From Candidatus Auribacterota bacterium (GTDB lineage Bacteria > Auribacterota > JAFGBW01): a stretch of DNA of 12,940 nucleotides. The notes below the pieces were generated by a model. It searched no databases. It had not been told where the DNA came from and saw nothing but the letters and a program-made list of their open reading frames with translations. The position numbers and the translations under genes are program-made. Below are positions 1 to 11,810 of the stretch, piece by piece; within the stretch, counting starts at the first letter, position 1; each line of letters begins with the position of its first letter. Where the stretch lies: NCBI GenBank assembly GCA_016932965.1, contig JAFGBW010000285.1:1-12940 (forward strand), in the 5' to 3' direction.

Positions 1-66
1 AGGGCCTATGACCCCTGCATCTCCTGTTCAGCCCATTTCTTAAACGTCCGTTTCATCGGCCGATAG
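1..66 (+). CDS. [NiFe]-hydrogenase large subunit, C-terminal fragment (partial at window start)
   Basis: Frame 1 is open from the window edge to a TAG at 64-66 and gives 21 residues containing DPCISCSAH. This is the C-terminal DPCxxCxxH motif of [NiFe]-hydrogenase large subunits. Its two cysteines bind the Ni-Fe centre, and maturation proteases cut directly after the histidine. Here nine residues (FLNVRFIGR) follow the histidine, so the protein is made as a precursor needing a protease. The RAYDPCxSCxxH form resembles cytoplasmic group 3 enzymes (Hyh, Mvh and Hox types) more than membrane group 1 enzymes, but 21 residues cannot settle the class. A maturation protease gene lies about 1 kb downstream on the same strand, which fits. 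The rest of the gene is outside the window. Confidence 0.85.
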   Translation, partial: RAYDPCISCSAHFLNVRFIGR

Positions 67-161: not shown

Positions 162-196
162 CGCATTCATGGAAACATCATGTTTCCATGAATGCG
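162..196. repeat. Perfect 16-bp inverted repeat with 3-nt loop upstream of purU
   Basis: The arm CGCATTCATGGAAACA (162-177) is exactly complementary to 181-196, with TCA as the loop. No T-run follows on either strand, so it is not a classical intrinsic terminator. It could still end or stabilise the hydrogenase transcript, or be an operator for purU. The ATG at 192 lies inside the right arm, which argues against that ATG as the purU start. Confidence 0.75.
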
Positions 197-248
197 GTTA
201 ATGTTTCTGTTAATCTTGTCTGAAAATTTTTTTTCAAGGGGTTTTATT

Positions 249-1112
249 TTGTCCGATCAAGATCTCACAGCCACTTTGCTTTTGACCTGTCCTGACAGGA
301 AGGGGCTCGTCTCCCGCATATCGCATTTCATTTTTGAACGAGGAGGGAACATCGTAGAGCTTGATGAGCATGTCGAGTCCCAGGAACAAAGATTTTTTCT
401 AAGGGTTGTGTGGGACATGAAGGATTTCAGCGTGATTCCGGCTCAGCTAAACGAGGTGTTTTTTCCCATGTCAAAAGAGTTCAACGCGGAATGGACCGTC
501 AGACTCAATTCCAATAAGCCGCGACTGGCCGTATTTGTTTCCAAGCACGATCATTGTCTGCAGGAGCTTCTTTGGCGTCAGGGACTGGGGGATTATGACT
601 GTGACATCAGACTGATCATTTCCAACCACAAAGATCTTCAATGGCTGGCTCAGCGTTACCAGATCCCGTTCCATGTGTTTCCTATCACTCAGGAGAACAA
701 GATCGTGCAGGAAAAAAAGGAGTTGGAAATGCTGGAAAAAGAAGAGATCAATACGATTGTATTGGCCCGCTACATGCAGATACTTTCGCCAAAATTTATT
801 TTCAGGTATTCCAACCGGATATTGAACATCCATCATTCATTTTTGCCTGCCTTTGCAGGTTCAGATCCATACAAACAGGCTTATGAGCGGGGAGTCAAAA
901 TCATCGGAGCCACGAGTCATTACGTCACAACACAATTAGACGCGGGGCCGATCATTGAACAGGACATCATCCGGATATCGCATAAAGACTCGCTCGAAGA
1001 ATTCATTCGCAAAGGCCGGGATCTTGAGCGGCTGGTATTATCCAGGGCTCTTCGTCTGCATCTGCAGGATCGCATACTGGTTTACGGAAACAAAACCATC
1101 ATTTTTGAGTAG
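249..1112 (+). CDS. purU: Formyltetrahydrofolate deformylase PurU
   Basis: Hydrolyses 10-formyl-tetrahydrofolate to formate and tetrahydrofolate in the cytoplasm. From the TTG at 249 the product has 287 residues, close to the usual size of about 280. An N-terminal ACT domain (about residues 5-85, with CPDRKGLVSRIS) is followed by a formyltransferase-fold domain (about 90-287). The catalytic signature is intact: N193 and H195 in NIHHSFLPAF, and D231 in LDAGPII. The ending VYGNKTIIF is typical of PurU. I chose TTG 249 because AAGGGG lies seven bases upstream and the protein then starts as usual for the family. The in-frame ATG at 192 would add 19 residues and sits in a palindrome. The gene lies between a hydrogenase large subunit and hydrogenase maturation genes, five bases before the next stop-to-start gap, so it is probably co-transcribed with them. 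Confidence 0.93.
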   Translation: MSDQDLTATLLLTCPDRKGLVSRISHFIFERGGNIVELDEHVESQEQRFFLRVVWDMKDFSVIPAQLNEVFFPMSKEFNAEWTVRLNSNKPRLAVFVSKHDHCLQELLWRQGLGDYDCDIRLIISNHKDLQWLAQRYQIPFHVFPITQENKIVQEKKELEMLEKEEINTIVLARYMQILSPKFIFRYSNRILNIHHSFLPAFAGSDPYKQAYERGVKIIGATSHYVTTQLDAGPIIEQDIIRISHKDSLEEFIRKGRDLERLVLSRALRLHLQDRILVYGNKTIIFE

Positions 1113-1120
1113 AATCCTTG

Positions 1121-1615
1121 ATGCGCCTGCCTGATTTATCTTTTTACTTGGATGGCGGATGCCTAGTCATTTTGACCGTAGGAAATACGTTGAGGTCCGA
1201 TGACGGGGCGGGGCCGTATATGGCTTCAAAACTGCATTCCGCTTCAAATGTGAAAATCATCGACGGCGGCATGCATCCGGAAAATTCAATAGAACAAATC
1301 ACTGCCTGGAAACCTTCTATAATTCTGATCATTGATGCGGCTGATTTTGGGGGGGGGGCCGGGGAAGTCCGTATCATTGAATCAGAGGCCATTCCGGAAA
1401 ATTCATTGAGCACTCATGCCATTTCTTTGAAAGTGATAGCAAAAATATTAAATGATGACATCGGCGCAAAAATCATATTTATTGGAATTCAGCCCAAAGA
1501 TGTTTCTTTCGGAGAGGGTTTATCTCCGGAAGTAAAAACCGCATCAGATGAGCTGGTCGAGTGGATGAATCGTCAGTTGCTGACAAAAAAGGAAAGGGAT
1601 ATGAACCATGCATGA
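1121..1615 (+). CDS. hycI: [NiFe]-hydrogenase maturation protease, HycI/HybD family
   Basis: Endopeptidase that removes the C-terminal tail of the hydrogenase large subunit after nickel insertion. The product has 164 residues, the normal size. The family motifs are present: GNTLRSDDGAGP near the N-terminus, IIDAAD in the middle, and STHAISL. The presumed nickel-sensing residues are D28, D72 and H99, matching E16/D62/H93 of HybD. The ending IGIQPKDVSFGEGLSPEV is like HycI proteins. A TTG directly precedes the ATG, so the start could be 1118. The gene begins eight bases after purU and overlaps the next gene by eight bases. A run of ten G (1349-1358) lies within the coding sequence just after the central Asp motif, a possible slippage or sequencing-error site. 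The likely substrate is the large subunit ending at position 66. Confidence 0.9.
   Translation: MRLPDLSFYLDGGCLVILTVGNTLRSDDGAGPYMASKLHSASNVKIIDGGMHPENSIEQITAWKPSIILIIDAADFGGGAGEVRIIESEAIPENSLSTHAISLKVIAKILNDDIGAKIIFIGIQPKDVSFGEGLSPEVKTASDELVEWMNRQLLTKKERDMNHA
1349..1358 (+). repeat. G10 homopolymer inside the maturation protease gene
   Basis: Ten consecutive G encode Gly-Gly-Gly and neighbouring bases after IIDAADF. One inserted or deleted base would shift the frame before the conserved STHAISL histidine and destroy the enzyme. The assembly as given is in frame. Confidence 0.9.
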
Positions 1616-1873: not shown

Positions 1874-3169
1874 ATGTGTTACGCGATTCCTGGAAGAGTA
1901 ACGTCCTTTAATCAAGAAACCGTCATCATTGATTATTTTGGGGAAGAAAAAAAGGCTCATAATGATTTTTATGAGCTCAAAGTTGGGGACTATGTCTATG
2001 CCCAGGGCGGGTTTGTCGTAAAAAAAATCCCTCCTGATGAAGCCCTTGAGATTCTTTCTGTATGGAAAGAAACATTTTTTGATCTGCAGGAAATAGACTT
2101 AAGGCTTTCCCGTCTGAATCTGGAAGCTCAGGGGATTCCCAGAAAAACAGGATTGATCCTCGATAAACTATGCGAAGGACGGCCTGCTTCGAAAGAGGAA
2201 TTGCTTTATTTTCTGAATCTGGATGATCCGTTTCAAATTGAGTTGTTGGGTAAGTCCGCCAATTTTGTCAGGCAGAAAAACCTGAAGAATTCATGCTGTG
2301 TTCACGGGATCATTGAGATATCAAGCCATTGCAGTCAACGGTGTTCTTATTGCGGCATCTCTGCCCATCATCAGTCGTTATCCAGGTACCGGATGGGTTG
2401 TGAAGAGATTTATTCCGTGGCCTTTGATGCGGTTGAAAAATACGGTTTCAAAGCCCTTGTGCTGCAAAGCGGAGAGGATGCCGGCTATCAGACAGAGGAA
2501 TTAGCCGGGGTCATCAGAAAAATCCGGGAGGAACTGGGAGCGCTGATTTTCATCAGTTTCGGGGAAATTTCCATTGATGCATTGGATGAGTATTACCAGG
2601 CAGGAGCTCGAGGATTTTTGATGCGTTTTGAAACTTCCAATCCTGTTCTATACGAGAAAGTCCGTCCGGGCAACCATCTTGAGACCAGGCTGGAACTGCT
2701 CCGGAAAGCTTATGAAGCAGGTTATCTCATCATCACCGGTGCCCTGATAGGCCTTCCGGGACAGACACCTGAAGATATATTGAATGATATTCATCTGGCC
2801 AATGAATTGAAAACAGAAATGTTGAGTTTCGGCCCTTTTATCCCTCATCCTTCCACTCCTTTTGCCTGTGAGAAAAAGCCGTTGGAAACAGACGTTCTCA
2901 AGACGCTCGCAGTGGCAAGACTCTGCTCTGATCCGGAGAGTAAGATCCTGGTTACGACAGGCTTTGAAACACTGACCCCTCAGGCAAGAAAAACAGGACT
3001 CATGGCAGGCGCCAATTCAGTGATGCTGAATGTCACGCCCATGCAATATCGAAAGAAGTATTGCATTTATCCCCATCGTGCCCATGAAGATGAAGAAATT
3101 GCGTTTCAGATTCAGGAAACCATTTCTTTATTGAAATCCCTTGGCCGGGCACCCACGGATTTAGGATGA
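1874..3169 (+). CDS. Fusion of a HypC-type hydrogenase chaperone domain and a HydE-type radical SAM protein
   Basis: Residues 1 to about 75 are a HypC/HupF domain: it begins MCYAIPG with the essential Cys2, and has the barrel pattern ending in VGDYVYAQGGFVVKKI. The histidine usual in VHxGF is Gln44 here. Residues from about 95 to 431 match full-length HydE, the radical SAM maturase of [FeFe] hydrogenase. The SAM cluster motif is C153-SQR-C157-SY-C160. Further HydE features are RYRM, LQSGED, SFGE, RFETSNPVLYEKVRP, GLPGQT, GPFIPHP and NVTP, with LGRAP near the end. The start is fixed by the conserved HypC N-terminus, which needs Met-Cys. It follows hypA by 20 bases. HypC normally carries Fe(CN)2CO with HypD; HydE acts on an iron-cysteine-CO-cyanide intermediate made by HydG. 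A joint role in making or handing over the iron-diatomic-ligand unit is inference. Confidence 0.9.
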   Translation: MCYAIPGRVTSFNQETVIIDYFGEEKKAHNDFYELKVGDYVYAQGGFVVKKIPPDEALEILSVWKETFFDLQEIDLRLSRLNLEAQGIPRKTGLILDKLCEGRPASKEELLYFLNLDDPFQIELLGKSANFVRQKNLKNSCCVHGIIEISSHCSQRCSYCGISAHHQSLSRYRMGCEEIYSVAFDAVEKYGFKALVLQSGEDAGYQTEELAGVIRKIREELGALIFISFGEISIDALDEYYQAGARGFLMRFETSNPVLYEKVRPGNHLETRLELLRKAYEAGYLIITGALIGLPGQTPEDILNDIHLANELKTEMLSFGPFIPHPSTPFACEKKPLETDVLKTLAVARLCSDPESKILVTTGFETLTPQARKTGLMAGANSVMLNVTPMQYRKKYCIYPHRAHEDEEIAFQIQETISLLKSLGRAPTDLG

Positions 3170-5052: not shown

Positions 5053-5343
5053 ATGAATTTGCCTCAGTCTTGTAAAGGTTCATGTTCTCAATGTACCTCC
5101 CTTGGCAATGATCCAAACAAACCAGGCGGATCAAAGTCTGTTCCACCCTGGAGAATCTGGACCGGCGCGTTCGGATTGTTTGTCTGCCCGTTGATATTGG
5201 CATTGCTGGGCGCGGTGACAGGGCACAAAAAACCCGGAACTCAGTTTCTAGGAGCTCTGGCAGGATTGGGGATGGGTTTGGTTCTCTCTGTCGGGTTTAA
5301 ATATCTTTTTCAATGGTTAAAAAAAAGAAATGATAACACATAA
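5053..5343 (+). CDS. Small Cys-motif membrane protein at the head of the rnf operon (RseC-like)
   Basis: From the ATG at 5053 the product has 96 residues. The N-terminal part has CKGSCSQC, a CxxxCxxC pattern that could hold a metal or Fe-S cluster. Two hydrophobic segments follow (WTGAFGLFVCPLILALLGAV and, after a short GHKKPG loop, FLGALAGLGMGLVLSVGF). The protein ends with a basic tail, KKRND. This layout recalls RseC, a two-helix membrane protein with N-terminal cysteines often encoded beside rnf genes, but it is shorter and the resemblance is loose. An in-frame TTG at 4996 would add 19 residues without a ribosome binding site. The gene overlaps rnfC by 14 bases, so it is part of the operon. 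A role in Rnf assembly or Fe-S insertion is only inferred from position. Confidence 0.65.
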   Translation: MNLPQSCKGSCSQCTSLGNDPNKPGGSKSVPPWRIWTGAFGLFVCPLILALLGAVTGHKKPGTQFLGALAGLGMGLVLSVGFKYLFQWLKKRNDNT

Positions 5344-6703
5344 TATCAAGGCGGGCCGGGGTGATTTTAAAAGGGGGATCCATCCGCCGGCTCAGAAGCA
5401 GTTGAGCAAAGACAATCCCGTTGTGCCTCTTCCTCTTCCGCAGAAAGTATCTGTTCCCGTGTTACAGCATACCGGGGCTCCTTGCGATTCAAAAGTAAAA
5501 CCGCGACAGAAGGTGACATTGGGGGAACTCCTGGGGGAGAGTACCGCTTTTATTTCAGCCCCCATTCATGCTCCTGTTAAAGGCACGGTGGCCATGCCTG
5601 CTATGACCACCTTACCGAACGGCCGTCATATGGCCTGTATTCCCATTCAGTCGGATTCGGATTCTCCGGATCCCAAACATGTCTGGGACGATTTGATCTC
5701 TTTTTCCTGGCCCAAAGCCGGTCTGGATAGCTACGAGGCCGTTACGATTGTGGAGGATGTTAAAAAAGCCGGGATTGTCGGATTAGGCGGTGCTGCATTT
5801 CCAACCCATGTTAAACTGACCTGGAATGAAAAAAAACCGGTTGATGTTCTACTCATTAACGGATGTGAATGCGAACCATATCTGACCAATGACGATCGTC
5901 TCATGATGGAAGCCTCTTCATCGATTGTGACCGGAGCCCTTCTGGCGGCCCGGGCCGTTAAGGTGAAGACCATCATGGTGGCCATTGAGGATAACAAGCC
6001 GGAATCTATCCGGAAAATGAGAGAAACAGCTGATGGAACGGGAATTCAAATCATTCCTGTGCATACCAAATATCCCATGGGCGGGGAGAGACAGGTCGTC
6101 CCTGCCGTATTAGGGAGGGAAGTTCCGACGGGCGGGTTGCCCTTGGATGTGGGAGTAGTTGTGATCAACGTCGGAACCGCCTCGTCCATTGCCTGCGCGG
6201 TTATAAAAAAACAGCCGCTGACCCATCGTGTCATCACGGTTACAGGCCGGGGAGTGAAACAGCCGAATAATCTGTTTGTTCCGATTGGCATCAGTTATAA
6301 GGAGGCCATTGATTTCTGCGGCGGACTGACTCAGGATGCCAAAAGGGTCATTTCCGGCGGTCCCATGATGGGATTCACCATAGGAGATTTGGAGACTCCC
6401 ATCACCAAAGGAACCAGCGGAGTGGTTGTTTTGACTGAACAGGATTTGAAAGACTCTGATGAATTAAATTGCATCCGGTGCGGACGATGCGTGGATGTCT
6501 GTCCCCTGAATCTGGTACCGACCAAAATAGCTTTGTCTTCCAAGTACAGGGACTGGTCACAGGCAAAACGCCATCACCTGATGGCCTGTTGTGAATGCGG
6601 ATGCTGCGCTTATATTTGTCCTTCACAGATTCCACTTGTTCAATTGATTCGTCTTGGAAAATCCCTTCTTCCAAAAGAAGAGAAGAAAGGATCTCTTCCA
6701 TGA
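5330..6703 (+). CDS. rnfC: Rnf complex subunit RnfC
   Basis: Peripheral cytoplasmic subunit of the ferredoxin:NAD+ oxidoreductase (Rnf), where NAD(H) is bound. It has 457 residues. The N-terminal RGIHPPAQK is the usual RnfC start signature. The nucleotide and FMN domain shows GIVGLGGAAFPTHVKL and NGCECEPYLTNDDRLM. A SLBB-like stretch follows (about residues 300-350). Two [4Fe-4S] motifs lie near the end: CIRCGRCVDVCP (C381, C384, C387, C391) and CCECGCCAYICP (residues 420-431). The form is short: it lacks the long Ala/Lys-rich C-terminal repeats of gammaproteobacterial RnfC. Its TGA overlaps the rnfD ATG. Electrons pass between reduced ferredoxin and NAD+ through the complex with ion transport across the membrane. 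Confidence 0.96.
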   Translation: MITHNIKAGRGDFKRGIHPPAQKQLSKDNPVVPLPLPQKVSVPVLQHTGAPCDSKVKPRQKVTLGELLGESTAFISAPIHAPVKGTVAMPAMTTLPNGRHMACIPIQSDSDSPDPKHVWDDLISFSWPKAGLDSYEAVTIVEDVKKAGIVGLGGAAFPTHVKLTWNEKKPVDVLLINGCECEPYLTNDDRLMMEASSSIVTGALLAARAVKVKTIMVAIEDNKPESIRKMRETADGTGIQIIPVHTKYPMGGERQVVPAVLGREVPTGGLPLDVGVVVINVGTASSIACAVIKKQPLTHRVITVTGRGVKQPNNLFVPIGISYKEAIDFCGGLTQDAKRVISGGPMMGFTIGDLETPITKGTSGVVVLTEQDLKDSDELNCIRCGRCVDVCPLNLVPTKIALSSKYRDWSQAKRHHLMACCECGCCAYICPSQIPLVQLIRLGKSLLPKEEKKGSLP

Positions 6704-7662
6704 TTCATGTTTCCCCATCCCCGCATTATCCTGGAAAAAGCAGGACATCGTCCATGATGATGAGAGATGTGCTGATCGCCTTGATTCCTTGTGTGTTGAT
6801 GGCCGTTTATGTATTCAGGTCTCATGCCGTTTTTCAAATAGCGGTTTGCGTTGCATCCTGTCTGGCCTCGGAAGCGATCTTCTCCCTGATGCGAGGAAAA
6901 AAAATCCCTTTACGTGATGGCTCTGCAGCTGTCACGGGTGTCATCCTGGCGCTTTCCTTGCCCTGGAGTGCTCCCTGGTATGTAGGCGTGATTGGTTCTT
7001 TTGTTGCCATTGGAATCGGAAAGATCATTTATGGCGGGCTGGGCCAGAATGTTTTTAATCCTGCCATGGTCGGCAGGGCTTTTGTGATGATCAATTTTCC
7101 GGTAGCATTAGGTGCATCAGCGTATGTTTCTTCCGGAACAGGCATTCATATCATCACACAGGCCACCCCGTTGACCGCTGCCAAACTGACGGCTCAAGTG
7201 TCTGGATTATGGCCGCTTTTTCTCGGTACCTGCAATGGATCGCTTGGTGAAGTCAGCGCGCTGGCATGCCTCATCGGAGGACTCTATCTTTGCTTTCGCA
7301 GGACAGCTTCCTGGGAAATTCCGGCAGGAATTTTTCTCAGCGTCATCATACTGGGTGGAGTTGCCAATATGGTTTCCATTCATAAGCAGATCACGGTGCT
7401 GCATCATCTGTTCAGCGGCGCTCTCTTTTTTGGCGCATTCTTTATTGCAACGGATCCGGTGACAAGCCCCTTGACACCTTTGGGTAAGTGGATTTTTGGA
7501 ATAGGTTTGGGTTTTTTTATCATGATGATCCGGCTTTTCAGCGGGTATCCGGAAGGAGTCATGTTTGCCGTTTTACTGATGAACGGCTGTGTTCCGATCA
7601 TCAACCGGTATACGATCCCTGTGCCTGTTGGAGGTCCGGTTCCGGAGAAGAAGGTTTCATGA
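6700..7662 (+). CDS. rnfD: Rnf complex subunit RnfD (covalent FMN protein)
   Basis: Integral membrane subunit of Rnf with 320 residues and about nine hydrophobic segments. Family motifs are SPHY near the start, LRDGSAAVTGVILALSLP, GGLGQNVFNPAMVGRAF, and ATDPVTSPLTPLGK. Thr259 in TSPLT corresponds to the threonine that carries FMN by a phosphoester bond; ApbE adds this FMN, and an apbE gene lies downstream. The ATG at 6700 overlaps the rnfC stop as ATGA, with AGAAAGGA about nine bases upstream. The open frame extends further 5' into rnfC, but the protein start at MIHVSPSPHYP fits the family. It overlaps rnfG the same way, indicating coupled translation. Confidence 0.95.
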   Translation: MIHVSPSPHYPGKSRTSSMMMRDVLIALIPCVLMAVYVFRSHAVFQIAVCVASCLASEAIFSLMRGKKIPLRDGSAAVTGVILALSLPWSAPWYVGVIGSFVAIGIGKIIYGGLGQNVFNPAMVGRAFVMINFPVALGASAYVSSGTGIHIITQATPLTAAKLTAQVSGLWPLFLGTCNGSLGEVSALACLIGGLYLCFRRTASWEIPAGIFLSVIILGGVANMVSIHKQITVLHHLFSGALFFGAFFIATDPVTSPLTPLGKWIFGIGLGFFIMMIRLFSGYPEGVMFAVLLMNGCVPIINRYTIPVPVGGPVPEKKVS

Positions 7663-8258
7663 AAAAAGAACATCCCCTATTTTTATGTATCAAGAACAGT
7701 TATCTGGGGCAATCCTGGCTGGTGATCCTGCTTTCTATTTTTTTCGGCTTTACTCTTTCAGGGGTGCAGGCTTTTCTTCAGGAAAAAATTGATACCAATA
7801 AATCGAATCAGTCTATGCGGATCGTCCCCACGCTTGTTCCCGGTGCTGTGACTGGAAAATCCGTCACCGTGGGTGATCTGACCGTCTATGAAGCCCTCAA
7901 CCAAAATAATAAAAGAGCCGGATGGGTTATTCCGGCAAGGGGTCAGGGTTTCGCTGATAAGATTGAAATCCTGATCGGCCTGACGCCTGATGCATCCTCC
8001 TTATCCGGATTATCGGTCCTGAATCAGAAAGAAACACCCGGTTTGGGAAGCCGGATCACGGAATCTTCCTGGCTTTCTCAATTCATCGGGAAAGGAACAA
8101 CAGATTCACTGACTCCGACAAAGAATCCGGTCCCTTCAAAAAATGAAATCAGGGCCATTACCGGTGCGACCATTTCATCCTTTAGTATTTGTCAGATTGT
8201 GAACGAGAATGTGAAAAAATTCAGAGCGGAATTACGTAAACAGCAGGCAGATCCATAA
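7659..8258 (+). CDS. rnfG: Rnf complex subunit RnfG (covalent FMN protein)
   Basis: A 199-residue subunit with one N-terminal membrane helix (about residues 18-38) and a domain outside the cytoplasm. The FMN-binding domain shows the GLSVLNQKETPGLGSRI stretch and then ITGATISS. Thr171 in TGAT is the expected site of covalent FMN, attached by ApbE. The true start is ATG 7659, which overlaps the rnfD TGA; the longer open frame upstream is only the rnfD region in another frame. The spacing to rnfE is ten bases. The length is near the family norm. Confidence 0.94.
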   Translation: MKKEHPLFLCIKNSYLGQSWLVILLSIFFGFTLSGVQAFLQEKIDTNKSNQSMRIVPTLVPGAVTGKSVTVGDLTVYEALNQNNKRAGWVIPARGQGFADKIEILIGLTPDASSLSGLSVLNQKETPGLGSRITESSWLSQFIGKGTTDSLTPTKNPVPSKNEIRAITGATISSFSICQIVNENVKKFRAELRKQQADP

Positions 8259-8268
8259 AAGGTATTTC

Positions 8269-8889
8269 ATGTCAAAAGAAAATCCGACAGCTTTAGAACG
8301 TTTTATCTGGGGCATCATTCCTGAAAATCCCATTTTCAGGCAGGTGCTGGGAACGTGTCCTGCTCTTGCTGTTTCTACGGATATCAAGGCTGCACTCACC
8401 ATGACCTGCGCCACTGCTTTTGTTTTGATTTGTGCTAATACCATCATCAGCCTGATCAGGCATTTATTAAAACCCCATTTAAGGATCGTGGTATTTGTTT
8501 TGACTATTGCCAGTTTTGTGACCATAGTGGATTATTTGTTGGCCGCCTTTTATTATTCCATGAGCCTTCAGCTCGGACCTTATGTCCCCTTGATCATTGT
8601 GAACTGCATCATCATCTGCCGCTGTGAAGTCTGCGCGTCAAAACAGTCTGTCGGGGTTGCCATCTCTGATGCCATCGGCCAGTCTCTTGGTTTTGGATTG
8701 GCTTTGGTCAGCATGGCCAGTTTCAGGGAAATTCTGGGCTCGGGAACCTGGTGCGGTTTCAGGATCATGCCGGATTCCTGGCCGAATTGGGTCCTCATGC
8801 TTCTTCCGCCAGGCGCTTTTTTTGTGTTCGGCTTTTTAATCGGCGCTGTCAATTGGTTCACGTCTTTGAAGAAAAATAAATCATCATGA
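8269..8889 (+). CDS. rnfE: Rnf complex subunit RnfE
   Basis: Integral membrane subunit of 206 residues with about six helices, homologous to RnfA and NqrD. Conserved stretches are LGTCPALAVS near the N-terminus, VPLIIVNCIIICRCE in the middle, and ISDAIGQSLGFGLALVSMASFREILGSGTW. Cys30 and Cys113 are in the positions that, in solved Rnf and Nqr structures, help hold an iron-sulfur cluster inside the membrane between RnfA and RnfE. It sits between rnfG and rnfA, with gaps of 10 and 16 bases. Confidence 0.95.
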   Translation: MSKENPTALERFIWGIIPENPIFRQVLGTCPALAVSTDIKAALTMTCATAFVLICANTIISLIRHLLKPHLRIVVFVLTIASFVTIVDYLLAAFYYSMSLQLGPYVPLIIVNCIIICRCEVCASKQSVGVAISDAIGQSLGFGLALVSMASFREILGSGTWCGFRIMPDSWPNWVLMLLPPGAFFVFGFLIGAVNWFTSLKKNKSS

Positions 8890-8905
8890 AAAGGATTTAC
8901 GGATT

Positions 8906-9592
8906 ATGGATCTGATCGGACTGTTCCTTCTGGCTTTTAATGCAACCCTCATCAATAATTATGTTCTGCATTATTTTGTCGGGATCTGCGCCTATATCGG
9001 TGTTTCTAAACGGATTGAAATGGCTTTTGGCATGGGCTGCGCCGTCACCTTTGTCATGGGCGTTGCGGCGATGCTGAGCTGGAGCGCAATTTATTTTCTG
9101 TTACAGCCTGGAGCACCGCTCACTTCTTTTATTTTCAAGACCATACATCCCGGATCGGATTCTGTCGTTAATTTGAGCGTCCTGAACAGCATTGTTTCCA
9201 TTTTTGTCATCGCTAGCTCTGTTCAGCTCGTGGAAATGTATATCAGGAAATTTTTTCCGGCGTTATACAAGGCATTTGGAGTGTATCTCCCACTCATCAC
9301 CACCAATTGCGCCATTTTATTTGCCTGCATTGAGATCATGAAACATGTTGGGAAAAACGCCGTTGAACCCTGGGGACTGGACAAAGCTTTGCTCTTGGCG
9401 ATTTCAGCAGGAATGGGATTCACCTTGGCCATTGTATTGATGGCGGGGATACGGGAGGATCTGGAAAATGCCGATGTGCCTGCTCCTTTGCAGGGTCCGG
9501 GGATCACGCTCATCACAGCCGGTATTTTTGCTATGGCGTTCATGGGATTCACCGGGATTGACCGGGGTTTGGCTGTTTTATTCGGCAGATGA
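8906..9592 (+). CDS. rnfA: Rnf complex subunit RnfA, with enlarged loop
   Basis: Integral membrane subunit of 228 residues, pairing with RnfE. Conserved motifs are INNYVLHYFVGICAYIGVSKR, read as INNYVLHYF followed by VGICAYIGVSK, then YLPLITTNCAIL, ADVPAPLQGPGITLITAG, and MAFMGFTGI. Cys28 and Cys135 are the expected ligands of the intramembrane iron-sulfur cluster. RnfA proteins usually have about 190-195 residues. The extra length lies mostly after the second helix (about residues 66-90, QPGAPLTSFIFKTIHPGSDS), plus a few residues near 150. The start ATG is preceded by AAGGATTTACGGATT, with AAGG about 14 bases upstream. It is followed by rnfB after 13 bases. Confidence 0.94.
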   Translation: MDLIGLFLLAFNATLINNYVLHYFVGICAYIGVSKRIEMAFGMGCAVTFVMGVAAMLSWSAIYFLLQPGAPLTSFIFKTIHPGSDSVVNLSVLNSIVSIFVIASSVQLVEMYIRKFFPALYKAFGVYLPLITTNCAILFACIEIMKHVGKNAVEPWGLDKALLLAISAGMGFTLAIVLMAGIREDLENADVPAPLQGPGITLITAGIFAMAFMGFTGIDRGLAVLFGR

Positions 9593-9605
9593 CAAGGAAA
9601 TACAC

Positions 9606-10511
9606 ATGTTGTTAGAAATAAGCTTATTGGCAGGACTGGTGATGCTTCTTCTGGCTCTTTTTTCAGGCTATTCTCTTGGCTGGGCCAACAAGACTTTTCA
9701 TGTTGAAGTGGATCCGAAAATCGCCCAGGTCAATCATGTTCTTCCCGGTGCCAACTGCGGCGGTTGCGGCTATATCGGGTGTGCGGATTATGCCTCCGCT
9801 ATTGTTCTCCAGGGCGTTAGTGTAACGAAATGTCCTGTTGGCGGTGAAAGTTGTGCAAAAAAGATCGCTGATATCATGGGAGTAGAGGTCAAACAAAGTT
9901 GGCCGTACAGACCTGTTATTCATTGCGCCGCGAAATACCCCGACCGTTTGAAAAGGATTCCCTATGCGGGAGAAGCAACGTGTATTGCAGCTAATCTGGT
10001 ATCAGGTATACAAGGATGTGTTTATGGATGCCTGGGATACGGGGATTGTGTTGCGGTCTGTAAATATGATGCCATTCATATTGTGGACGGACTTTCTGTA
10101 GTTGATTATGAAAAATGTATCGGCTGCGGCGCCTGTGCGAAGATCTGTCCGCGGAATATCATCACCATGGTTCCTTTTAAGATGGAAAATATCGTGGCTA
10201 TTGCCTGTTCAAACAAGGATTTCATGAATGATGTCAAATCCGTTTGTAATGTTGGCTGCATCGGCTGCAAGGCGTGTGAACGTTTGAGTCCTATCTTTAA
10301 GGTTGCCAATAACCTTCCCTCCATTGACTATAACCAGTATGATCCGGGGGTCAGTTATCAGGCTGTAGTAGATAAATGTCCTCGTGAAACCATTATTTAT
10401 GTCGGCAAACCCTCTCAAAAAGACAAGGATGCTGTTTCAAAGGAAGAAGTTCCTAAACCAGTTGAAGCCCAATTCAAAACCACGGTCGATTCCACTGAGT
10501 GGCGGGGTTGA
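9606..10511 (+). CDS. rnfB: Rnf complex subunit RnfB (multi-cluster ferredoxin-like protein)
   Basis: The 301-residue subunit that accepts electrons from ferredoxin. One N-terminal membrane helix (about residues 5-25) is followed by the Fe-S domain NCGGCGYIGC (C51, C54, C59, then C76), as in other RnfB proteins. Ferredoxin-like motifs follow: CVYGCLGYGDCVAVC, CIGCGACAKICP and CNVGCIGCKAC with a later CP. This suggests at least four clusters. The C-terminal tail of about 35 residues is charged and probably disordered. The start was set at ATG 9606, preceded by AAGGAA; the upstream extension of the frame runs into rnfA. It is the last gene of the operon, followed by a hairpin and T-run. Confidence 0.95.
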   Translation: MLLEISLLAGLVMLLLALFSGYSLGWANKTFHVEVDPKIAQVNHVLPGANCGGCGYIGCADYASAIVLQGVSVTKCPVGGESCAKKIADIMGVEVKQSWPYRPVIHCAAKYPDRLKRIPYAGEATCIAANLVSGIQGCVYGCLGYGDCVAVCKYDAIHIVDGLSVVDYEKCIGCGACAKICPRNIITMVPFKMENIVAIACSNKDFMNDVKSVCNVGCIGCKACERLSPIFKVANNLPSIDYNQYDPGVSYQAVVDKCPRETIIYVGKPSQKDKDAVSKEEVPKPVEAQFKTTVDSTEWRG

Positions 10512-10736: not shown

Positions 10737-11810
10737 TCATTCAATGGTTGTCCACTTCTTTTTTTCCGGAAAAGACGGCAGAGGGAAGAGATATTCCATG
10801 AATCCTTTTGTATGATAAATGCGGCAATCATCCATGGTTCCCATTACCAGCATGGCATGAATTAAAGGATGTTTTTTTAGCCATACAAGTCCTTTGGGGC
10901 CTGAAATGCTTAACGCAGTTGCCCAGACATCCGCTTCGATTGCGGTAGGGGCGATCACCGTAACGGACGGGACCCTGTCAGCATTCTGATGTGTTCTTGG
11001 GTTGATGATATGACTGTAGCGTTTTCTGTTGATTTCAATAAACCGGTAATAATTCCCGCTGGTACAGACACTTTTTCCTTTCCTGGAGAATTTCAGGATT
11101 GCCCAGATTTCATTTTGAAAGGGATTCCTTACCTCCACTTCCCAGGCTGTTTTGCCGGGCAGAGGCTTGCCGTAAACCCTTAAATCACCCCCGACATTCA
11201 CCATGCCTCCCTGAAAACCCATGGATTTGAGTTTTTCAATTGCCTGGTCTACCCCTAATCCTTTGGCAATTCCTCCCAGATCCAGTCTGACAGTTGGAGA
11301 GAACTTGACTGCTTTTTGTCCGTTAAGATGGATTTGTTCCCAGGAGGAACAGTTTCTGGCTTCCTGTAATTTGTCAGGATCAGGTAATCTGTTTTCTTTC
11401 CCGGCTTTATTCCATAAAGAAATAAGAGGATAACATGTCACGTCAAAGCGGCCGTGAGTAATGAACCATGCTTTTCTGGCCTCATTCAGAATAGAAGATA
11501 ATTTGTCGCTCAGGATCATTTTTTGATTGGCAGGCAGAGAATTAAACCGTGAAAGCTCAGATTGTTCCAGATGCACACTCATCAGGGCTTCCAGTTTCCG
11601 CAGTTCATTTTCCGCTTCATGCAACCCTGTCATGGCTTTTTCATGTTCAAAAGAAGAGGCAATGACAACAAGAAGTGAATCGGTCCCCATGATCCCTGCA
11701 GGATGAGAAGAATAAAGGCGGACGGATTCCGTTTTCCGGAAAAACAGAACCGCGATGATGAGGGTTCCTGAAACTAAAAGGATGATGGATCGTTTTTCGA
11801 TGAGGTTCAT
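10737..11810 (-). CDS. apbE: FAD:protein FMN transferase ApbE
   Basis: Transfers FMN from FAD to a threonine of target proteins, forming the phosphoester-bound flavins of RnfD and RnfG. It has 357 residues. An N-terminal membrane anchor (about residues 8-25, without a lipoprotein Cys) places it outside the cytoplasm, as expected for its action on RnfG. Family motifs are GTDSLLVVIA, LEALMSVH, RFDVTCYPLISLW, RLDLGGIAKGLGVDQ, GGMVNVGGDLRVYG, SVCTSGNYYRF, YSHIINPRT and the metal-binding EADVWATALS. No strong ribosome binding site is visible before the ATG at 11810. It is convergent with the rnf operon, its expected functional partner. Confidence 0.95.
   Translation of the reverse strand: MNLIEKRSIILLVSGTLIIAVLFFRKTESVRLYSSHPAGIMGTDSLLVVIASSFEHEKAMTGLHEAENELRKLEALMSVHLEQSELSRFNSLPANQKMILSDKLSSILNEARKAWFITHGRFDVTCYPLISLWNKAGKENRLPDPDKLQEARNCSSWEQIHLNGQKAVKFSPTVRLDLGGIAKGLGVDQAIEKLKSMGFQGGMVNVGGDLRVYGKPLPGKTAWEVEVRNPFQNEIWAILKFSRKGKSVCTSGNYYRFIEINRKRYSHIINPRTHQNADRVPSVTVIAPTAIEADVWATALSISGPKGLVWLKKHPLIHAMLVMGTMDDCRIYHTKGFMEYLFPLPSFPEKKKWTTIE

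Follow-up and report, generated by a model that had tools for sequence, protein, structure and literature searches.

Known [NiFe]-hydrogenase sites hold an iron that carries one CO and two CN ligands. HypX provides an aerobic supply of CO from formyl-tetrahydrofolate for such enzymes and works with HypCD. Fe(CN)2CO is carried to the large subunit by HypC-type proteins (PMC8692609, PMC9002611), and the maturation protease checks for nickel (PMC12134894). On the [FeFe] side, HydG uses tyrosine to form [Fe(Cys)(CO)2(CN)], and this unit goes straight to HydE for adenosylation and reduction (PMC11736057). A 2025 review of [NiFe] cofactor assembly mentions neither HydG nor HydE, and surveys of Saganbacteria and Omnitrophota that describe group 3b and group 4 hydrogenases leave the maturation described below unmentioned (PMC6349859, PMC8542988).

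The window, by which we mean the whole 12,940-nucleotide stretch of DNA that was analysed, is the full length of its source contig (C79), from a genome of 3.1 Mb that is 92.6% complete. An earlier note on this DNA had placed a HypC domain and a complete HydE-type maturase, each with its key cysteines, in one 431-residue frame (Table 1), and Pfam, NCBIfam and phmmer searches all bear this out. Residues 1-64 begin with MCxxxPG and match Pfam HupF_HypC at 49.7 bits (cut-off 28.5), while residues 147-308 match Pfam Radical_SAM. The NCBIfam HydE model (TIGR03956) matched residues 96-421 at 230.7 bits, which is below its equivalog cut-off of 254.6; most fusions score 203-253 bits and a few reach 274. 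Using phmmer, we aligned residues 95-427 with T. maritima HydE (TmHydE; E 4e-64) and residues 1-67 with HypC 2z1c. Cys2 (codon 1877-1879) and C153/C157/C160 are invariant across all 79 full-length fusions. An AF2 model of the fusion (pLDDT 93.4, pTM 0.92) superposes on TmHydE 3iiz over 336 residues (VIA Z 47.6, rmsd 1.6 Å), and HydE structures with bound complex B are among the top fold matches to this model; the fold comparison took in residues 86-431, and the HypC part is assigned from sequence.

Table 1. Coordinates of the fusion gene, its domains and motifs, and its [NiFe]-side neighbours in the window
Feature	Position	Strand	Remarks
[NiFe]-hydrogenase large subunit C-terminus	1..66	+	direct reading; 5' part beyond contig edge
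PurU, formyltetrahydrofolate deformylase	192..1112	+	TIGR00655, 391 bits
HycI-type hydrogenase maturation protease	1118..1615	+	TIGR00142, 142 bits vs cut-off 119
Short HypA, 81 aa	1608..1853	+	PF01155, profile positions 1-69 of 112
HypC::HydE fusion, 431 aa	1874..3169	+	ATG start, frame open for 431 codons
HypC domain, residues 1-65	1874..2068	+	Pfam HupF_HypC (PF01455)
HydE-type radical-SAM domain, residues 95-427	2156..3154	+	fold match to TmHydE 3iiz
CCxH motif (C141, C142, H144)	2294..2305	+	fusion-specific, first barrel strand
Radical-SAM [4Fe-4S] ligands C153, C157, C160	2330..2353	+	identical in 79/79

Closer inspection of the alignments identified residues at which the fusions depart from HypC and from canonical HydE. 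Gln44 (codon 2003-2005), part of an AQG present in 79 of 79 fusions, occupies the HypC histidine position (E. coli H51 by alignment), and the HypC structures aligned with the fusion carry His there, within a VxxHxGF segment. A part in keeping iron bound to HypCD has been ascribed to E. coli HypC H51 (PMC12134894), and its replacement by an invariant glutamine fits with the loss of HypD. Within the HydE domain, C142 and H144 of the CCxH motif are each found in 100% of the 79 fusions and C141 in 97%. These three residues stand at TmHydE V51, H52 and R54, the last of which is invariant in the 15 canonical HydE proteins compared. By alignment the fusion retains the HydE pocket positions Tm T268, T269, M224, M291 and Y306, with S108 kept in 96%. 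Binding of complex B by the fusion's HydE domain, with His in place of R54, is a prediction. Gln412 lies at the auxiliary-cluster position (Tm 319), where 12 of the 15 canonical proteins have Cys.

A scan of the genome collection returned 152 relatives of the fusion, many of them from uncultured bacteria. The best 80 were used; these share 49-64% identity with the query and span it completely or almost so. Among these best 80 of 152, Omnitrophota account for 39 of the phylum-labelled entries, and the remainder include Margulisbacteria, Saganbacteria/WOR-1, Elusimicrobiota, Spirochaetota, Myxococcota, Atribacterota, Caldifarciminota (WOR-3), Lentisphaerota and Riflebacteria. One contig labelled 'Falkowbacteria' (L071/L072) matches a WOR-1 contig in large-subunit length, score and downstream gene order and is probably mis-binned. 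Because the relatives lie on 80 independent contigs and mostly align end to end, a frameshift, a chimeric assembly or chance can be excluded as the origin of the fusion, which dismisses the stop or frameshift between its two parts that the earlier note had named as a possible refutation. In a quick tree, the HydE parts of the 79 fusions form a single group against the 15 canonical HydE proteins (SH-aLRT 100), in agreement with one fusion event.

The [NiFe] character of the neighbouring genes, namely the large-subunit C-terminus, the protease and HypA, was likewise confirmed, with two features to be added to the earlier description: PurU and the loss of the HypA zinc domain. Bases 1-66 translate to RAYDPCISCSAHFLNVRFIGR followed by a stop, comprising the DPCISCSAH ligand motif and a 9-residue tail that is removed by the protease, and the same letters close the full-length large subunit (441 aa) encoded on a second contig of this genome (G000:C180, L157). 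That contig encodes beta, gamma, small and large subunits and then PurU, a near-identical upstream half of the operon. Among solved structures its large subunit lies nearest to T. kodakarensis HyhL and P. furiosus sulfhydrogenase 1, which makes this half a group 3b match. C180 and the window (1-66, and from 192 onward) hold the same operon in near-identical yet differing sequence, which suggests two strains or two copies within the bin. PurU, which lies between large subunit and protease in the window and is also 3' of the large subunit on C180, was not recognised among the widespread neighbour clusters of fusion loci in other genomes; it is a candidate component of the maturation system, with a formate or one-carbon tie to the hydrogenase possible. 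The short HypA, whose gene overlaps the protease stop, begins with MHE and retains the N-terminal nickel-site half. Elsewhere in the window, an Rnf operon (RnfC, D, G, E, A, B; 5330-10511) is followed by ApbE on the opposite strand (10737-11810), consistent with ferredoxin-based energy metabolism.

Clustering the neighbours of 81 fusion loci revealed a recurring order of HydB-like, flavin, small and large subunits, protease, short HypA and fusion, such that the fusion is usually the last gene of a [NiFe]-hydrogenase operon in which the genes, by median spacing, mostly overlap or stand a few bases apart. The protease gene is present in 48 of the 81 loci and Rex in 25. The group 3b layout of a single operon for the beta, gamma, small and large subunits is seen at L032, L157 and many more loci, and at some loci the fusion is accompanied by group 4 type subunits. 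Neither hypB, hypD, hypE nor hypF occurs among the widespread neighbours at these 81 loci. HydG is encoded on the strand of the fusion in 35 of the 81, and in about 30 it adjoins the fusion or is separated from it by a single Rex gene; it lies either 3', where a few bases overlap in L051, L052, L062 and L066, or directly 5', as in Elusimicrobiota. At one locus (L055 12757-13014; also L189), an 85-aa fragment matching the HydF C-terminal domain sits right 3' of HydG in the fusion operon and looks like the leftover of a captured hyd gene cluster.

To place these operons in their genomic context we searched 52 fusion genomes, mostly draft metagenome bins of mostly unstated completeness; the HypB, HypD, HypE and HypF searches recovered their targets from E. 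coli and further controls. Tabulating hydrogenase class together with hydG, hydF and hypD returned a [NiFe] large subunit in 51 of the 52 genomes, HydG above the cut-off in 49, HydF in 20 and HypD in 1. Full-length HypF was found in one genome (G092); matches elsewhere were partial or belonged to the acylphosphatase, YrdC and Kae1-type background and were dismissed. No genome among the 52 contained HypE above the cut-off, and 8 contained HypB above the cut-off in a search for the non-archaeal type. In 51 of the 52 genomes HypC domains occur solely within the fusion, and the window's genome has just this one. The remaining genome, G092, also encodes a free-standing HypC of 77 aa, grouped with HypD, HypB, HypF and a group-1 large subunit on a different contig, which indicates that this standalone hyp set has another client. 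This deltaproteobacterial bin (L161, L162) holds both systems, and its fusion lies beside a group 4 type large subunit. A Riflebacteria genome (L160, G091:C105; G091:C141:135817-137214) encodes a group-1-like large subunit (513 bits) with full HypA, HypB and the fusion, and lacks HypD, HypE and HypF; the fusion route may extend to group 1 enzymes.

HydG, in turn, was undetected in G053, G063 and G089, perhaps through genome incompleteness. Of 59 HydGs compared, 17, including that of the window's genome, are encoded away from any fusion or [FeFe] cluster as far as the examined DNA shows, and linkage of HydG to the fusion is therefore not universal. A genome that is 98% complete (G001) combines HydG, the fusion and a group 3b operon, and whole-genome searches of it found no HypD, HypE, HypF, HydF, canonical HydE or [FeFe]-hydrogenase.

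We consider it likely that the fusion is the centre of a hybrid [NiFe] maturation in which HydG and HydE chemistry replaces HypD, HypE and HypF. From the observed gene content and operons we infer the following chemical steps. HydG, adjoining the fusion or elsewhere in the genome, would split tyrosine to yield an Fe(CO)2(CN)-cysteine unit, which the HydE domain would receive straight from HydG and, with SAM, convert by freeing the iron-ligand group from the cysteine. One iron unit would then pass to Cys2 of the HypC domain on the same chain, with no pairing of two units and no HydF, and the C141-C142-H144 patch is perhaps the path from HydE to Cys2. The HypC domain would deliver this Fe-CO-CN group to the large subunit of the [NiFe] enzyme, nickel would come from the short HypA and the protease would then close the site. 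Such a route would make HypD, HypE and HypF unnecessary and tyrosine the source of both CO and CN in these anaerobes. The suggestion that a radical-SAM step feeds a HypC carrier is strongly supported by comparative genomics, 51 of the 52 genomes lacking both HypD and HypF, with the reaction itself a prediction; the further idea of an alternative route for [NiFe] enzymes has the same support, and HydG is a third part that the earlier note had not foreseen.

The final ligand set, which we likewise infer, poses a question of stoichiometry, since a unit with two CO and one CN demands either ligand exchange or a different site when set against the one CO and two CN of [NiFe] enzymes. Both CxxC pairs, and with them the four NiFe cysteines, are present in 62 of 64 large subunits from all groups, the remaining two being truncated. 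The PRG and PT segments, which bind the two cyanides in [NiFe] structures, align with HyhL; their retention favours ligand exchange. Alternatively, the HydG unit could be inserted unchanged to give a non-standard site, either nickel with Fe(CO)2(CN) or iron only, a sub-case of the hybrid route that is compatible with our preferred explanation and that we regard as possible but doubtful. Its attraction is that the HydG unit is itself Fe(CO)2(CN) (PMC11736057), and the invariant glutamine at the HypC histidine position, the absence of HypB from 44 of the 52 genomes and the truncation of HypA point the same way. Of 48 short HypA proteins, 33 start with MHE and lack CxxC (for example L032 4794-5036), and the reduction of HypA to its nickel-binding half together with the lack of HypB in most fusion genomes may mean a simpler nickel insertion. 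Against an unchanged insertion stand the aligned PRG and PT segments and the retention of both the nickel-binding half of HypA and a protease of the nickel-checking kind (PMC12134894). A new type of hydrogenase active site, in which nickel is paired with an iron that has two CO ligands and one CN, is a tentative prospect and rather unlikely.

The same mismatch in CO:CN ratio could mean that HydG and the fusion give only part of the site, such as the CO, and that cyanide and scaffold come from unrecognised proteins standing in for HypD, HypE and HypF. Four genomes do encode a HypE-like protein of the AIR-synthase type; its scores of 85-90 bits, however, fall far under the HypE cut-off of 251.6, and we rejected a HypE identity because the PRIC motif is missing in the four best frames. 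Moreover, both CO and CN are HydG products (PMC11736057), and no widespread extra unknown gene other than Rex was seen in the operons of the 81 loci. We thus find a partial supply improbable.

We also asked whether the fusion and HydG could be [FeFe]-hydrogenase maturation factors that lie beside [NiFe] genes by chance. An [FeFe]-hydrogenase is indeed encoded in 22 of the 52 genomes, and the HydGs of fusion loci and FeFe loci intermingle in a tree with 9 label changes, which led us to reject a special [NiFe] clade of HydG. However, the 22 genomes with an [FeFe]-hydrogenase contain HydG in 20, HydF in 20 and a separate canonical HydE in 17, whereas HydG persists in 29 of the 30 genomes without the enzyme and HydF and canonical HydE are found in none of them. 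HydG is thus kept either way, while HydF and canonical HydE track the [FeFe]-hydrogenase (Fisher p 2e-12 and 1e-9, respectively, the genomes being related and the p values a guide only). The fusion therefore does not always accompany [FeFe]-hydrogenase with hydF and hydG to the exclusion of [NiFe] enzymes, as the earlier note had allowed it might, and a chance association is very improbable. That HypD, HypE and HypF are merely missing through genome incompleteness is hardly credible, since, although most of the genomes are metagenome bins, the same genomes yield HydG and the large subunit at near-full counts and the two bins of stated completeness lack all three.

The proposed hybrid maturation route is assembled from known families and is itself undescribed in the literature searched, in which we found no account of HydG and HypC::HydE acting on [NiFe] enzymes (preprints and most subscription journals lay outside the search). 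Widespread lineages apparently employ HydG, a maker of CO and CN from tyrosine, for [NiFe] ligands, and the route joins two maturation systems so far treated separately, with a CO source that is testable. HydG, HypC::HydE, short HypA and the protease are predicted to form a compact kit for producing [NiFe]-hydrogenases in foreign hosts. For genome annotation, HydG and HydE alone are no proof of an [FeFe]-hydrogenase.

Compared with described systems, the fusion route resembles the HypCDEF pathway in its [NiFe] target family, its HypC-type carrier with an N-terminal Cys2, HypA and the final protease, but dispenses with the HypD scaffold and with cyanide synthesis by HypE and HypF, and its HypC is joined to HydE and bears an invariant Gln for the conserved His. 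With the HydEFG pathway it shares an ordinary HydG, the HydE fold, the radical-SAM cysteines and most pocket residues, whereas 32 of the 52 fusion genomes lack HydF, the target is a [NiFe] large subunit, and the HydE bears a HypC domain, CCxH at the R54 strand and Gln412 at Tm 319. HypX is alike in being a dedicated extra enzyme for [NiFe] ligands, but its chemistry is unrelated and the fusion system operates without HypD. The group 3b enzymes P. furiosus SHI and T. kodakarensis Hyh correspond in their four-subunit operon, large-subunit cysteines, tail and protease; the fusion systems differ from them in the maturation genes, and some fusion genomes pair the fusion with group 4 type enzymes.
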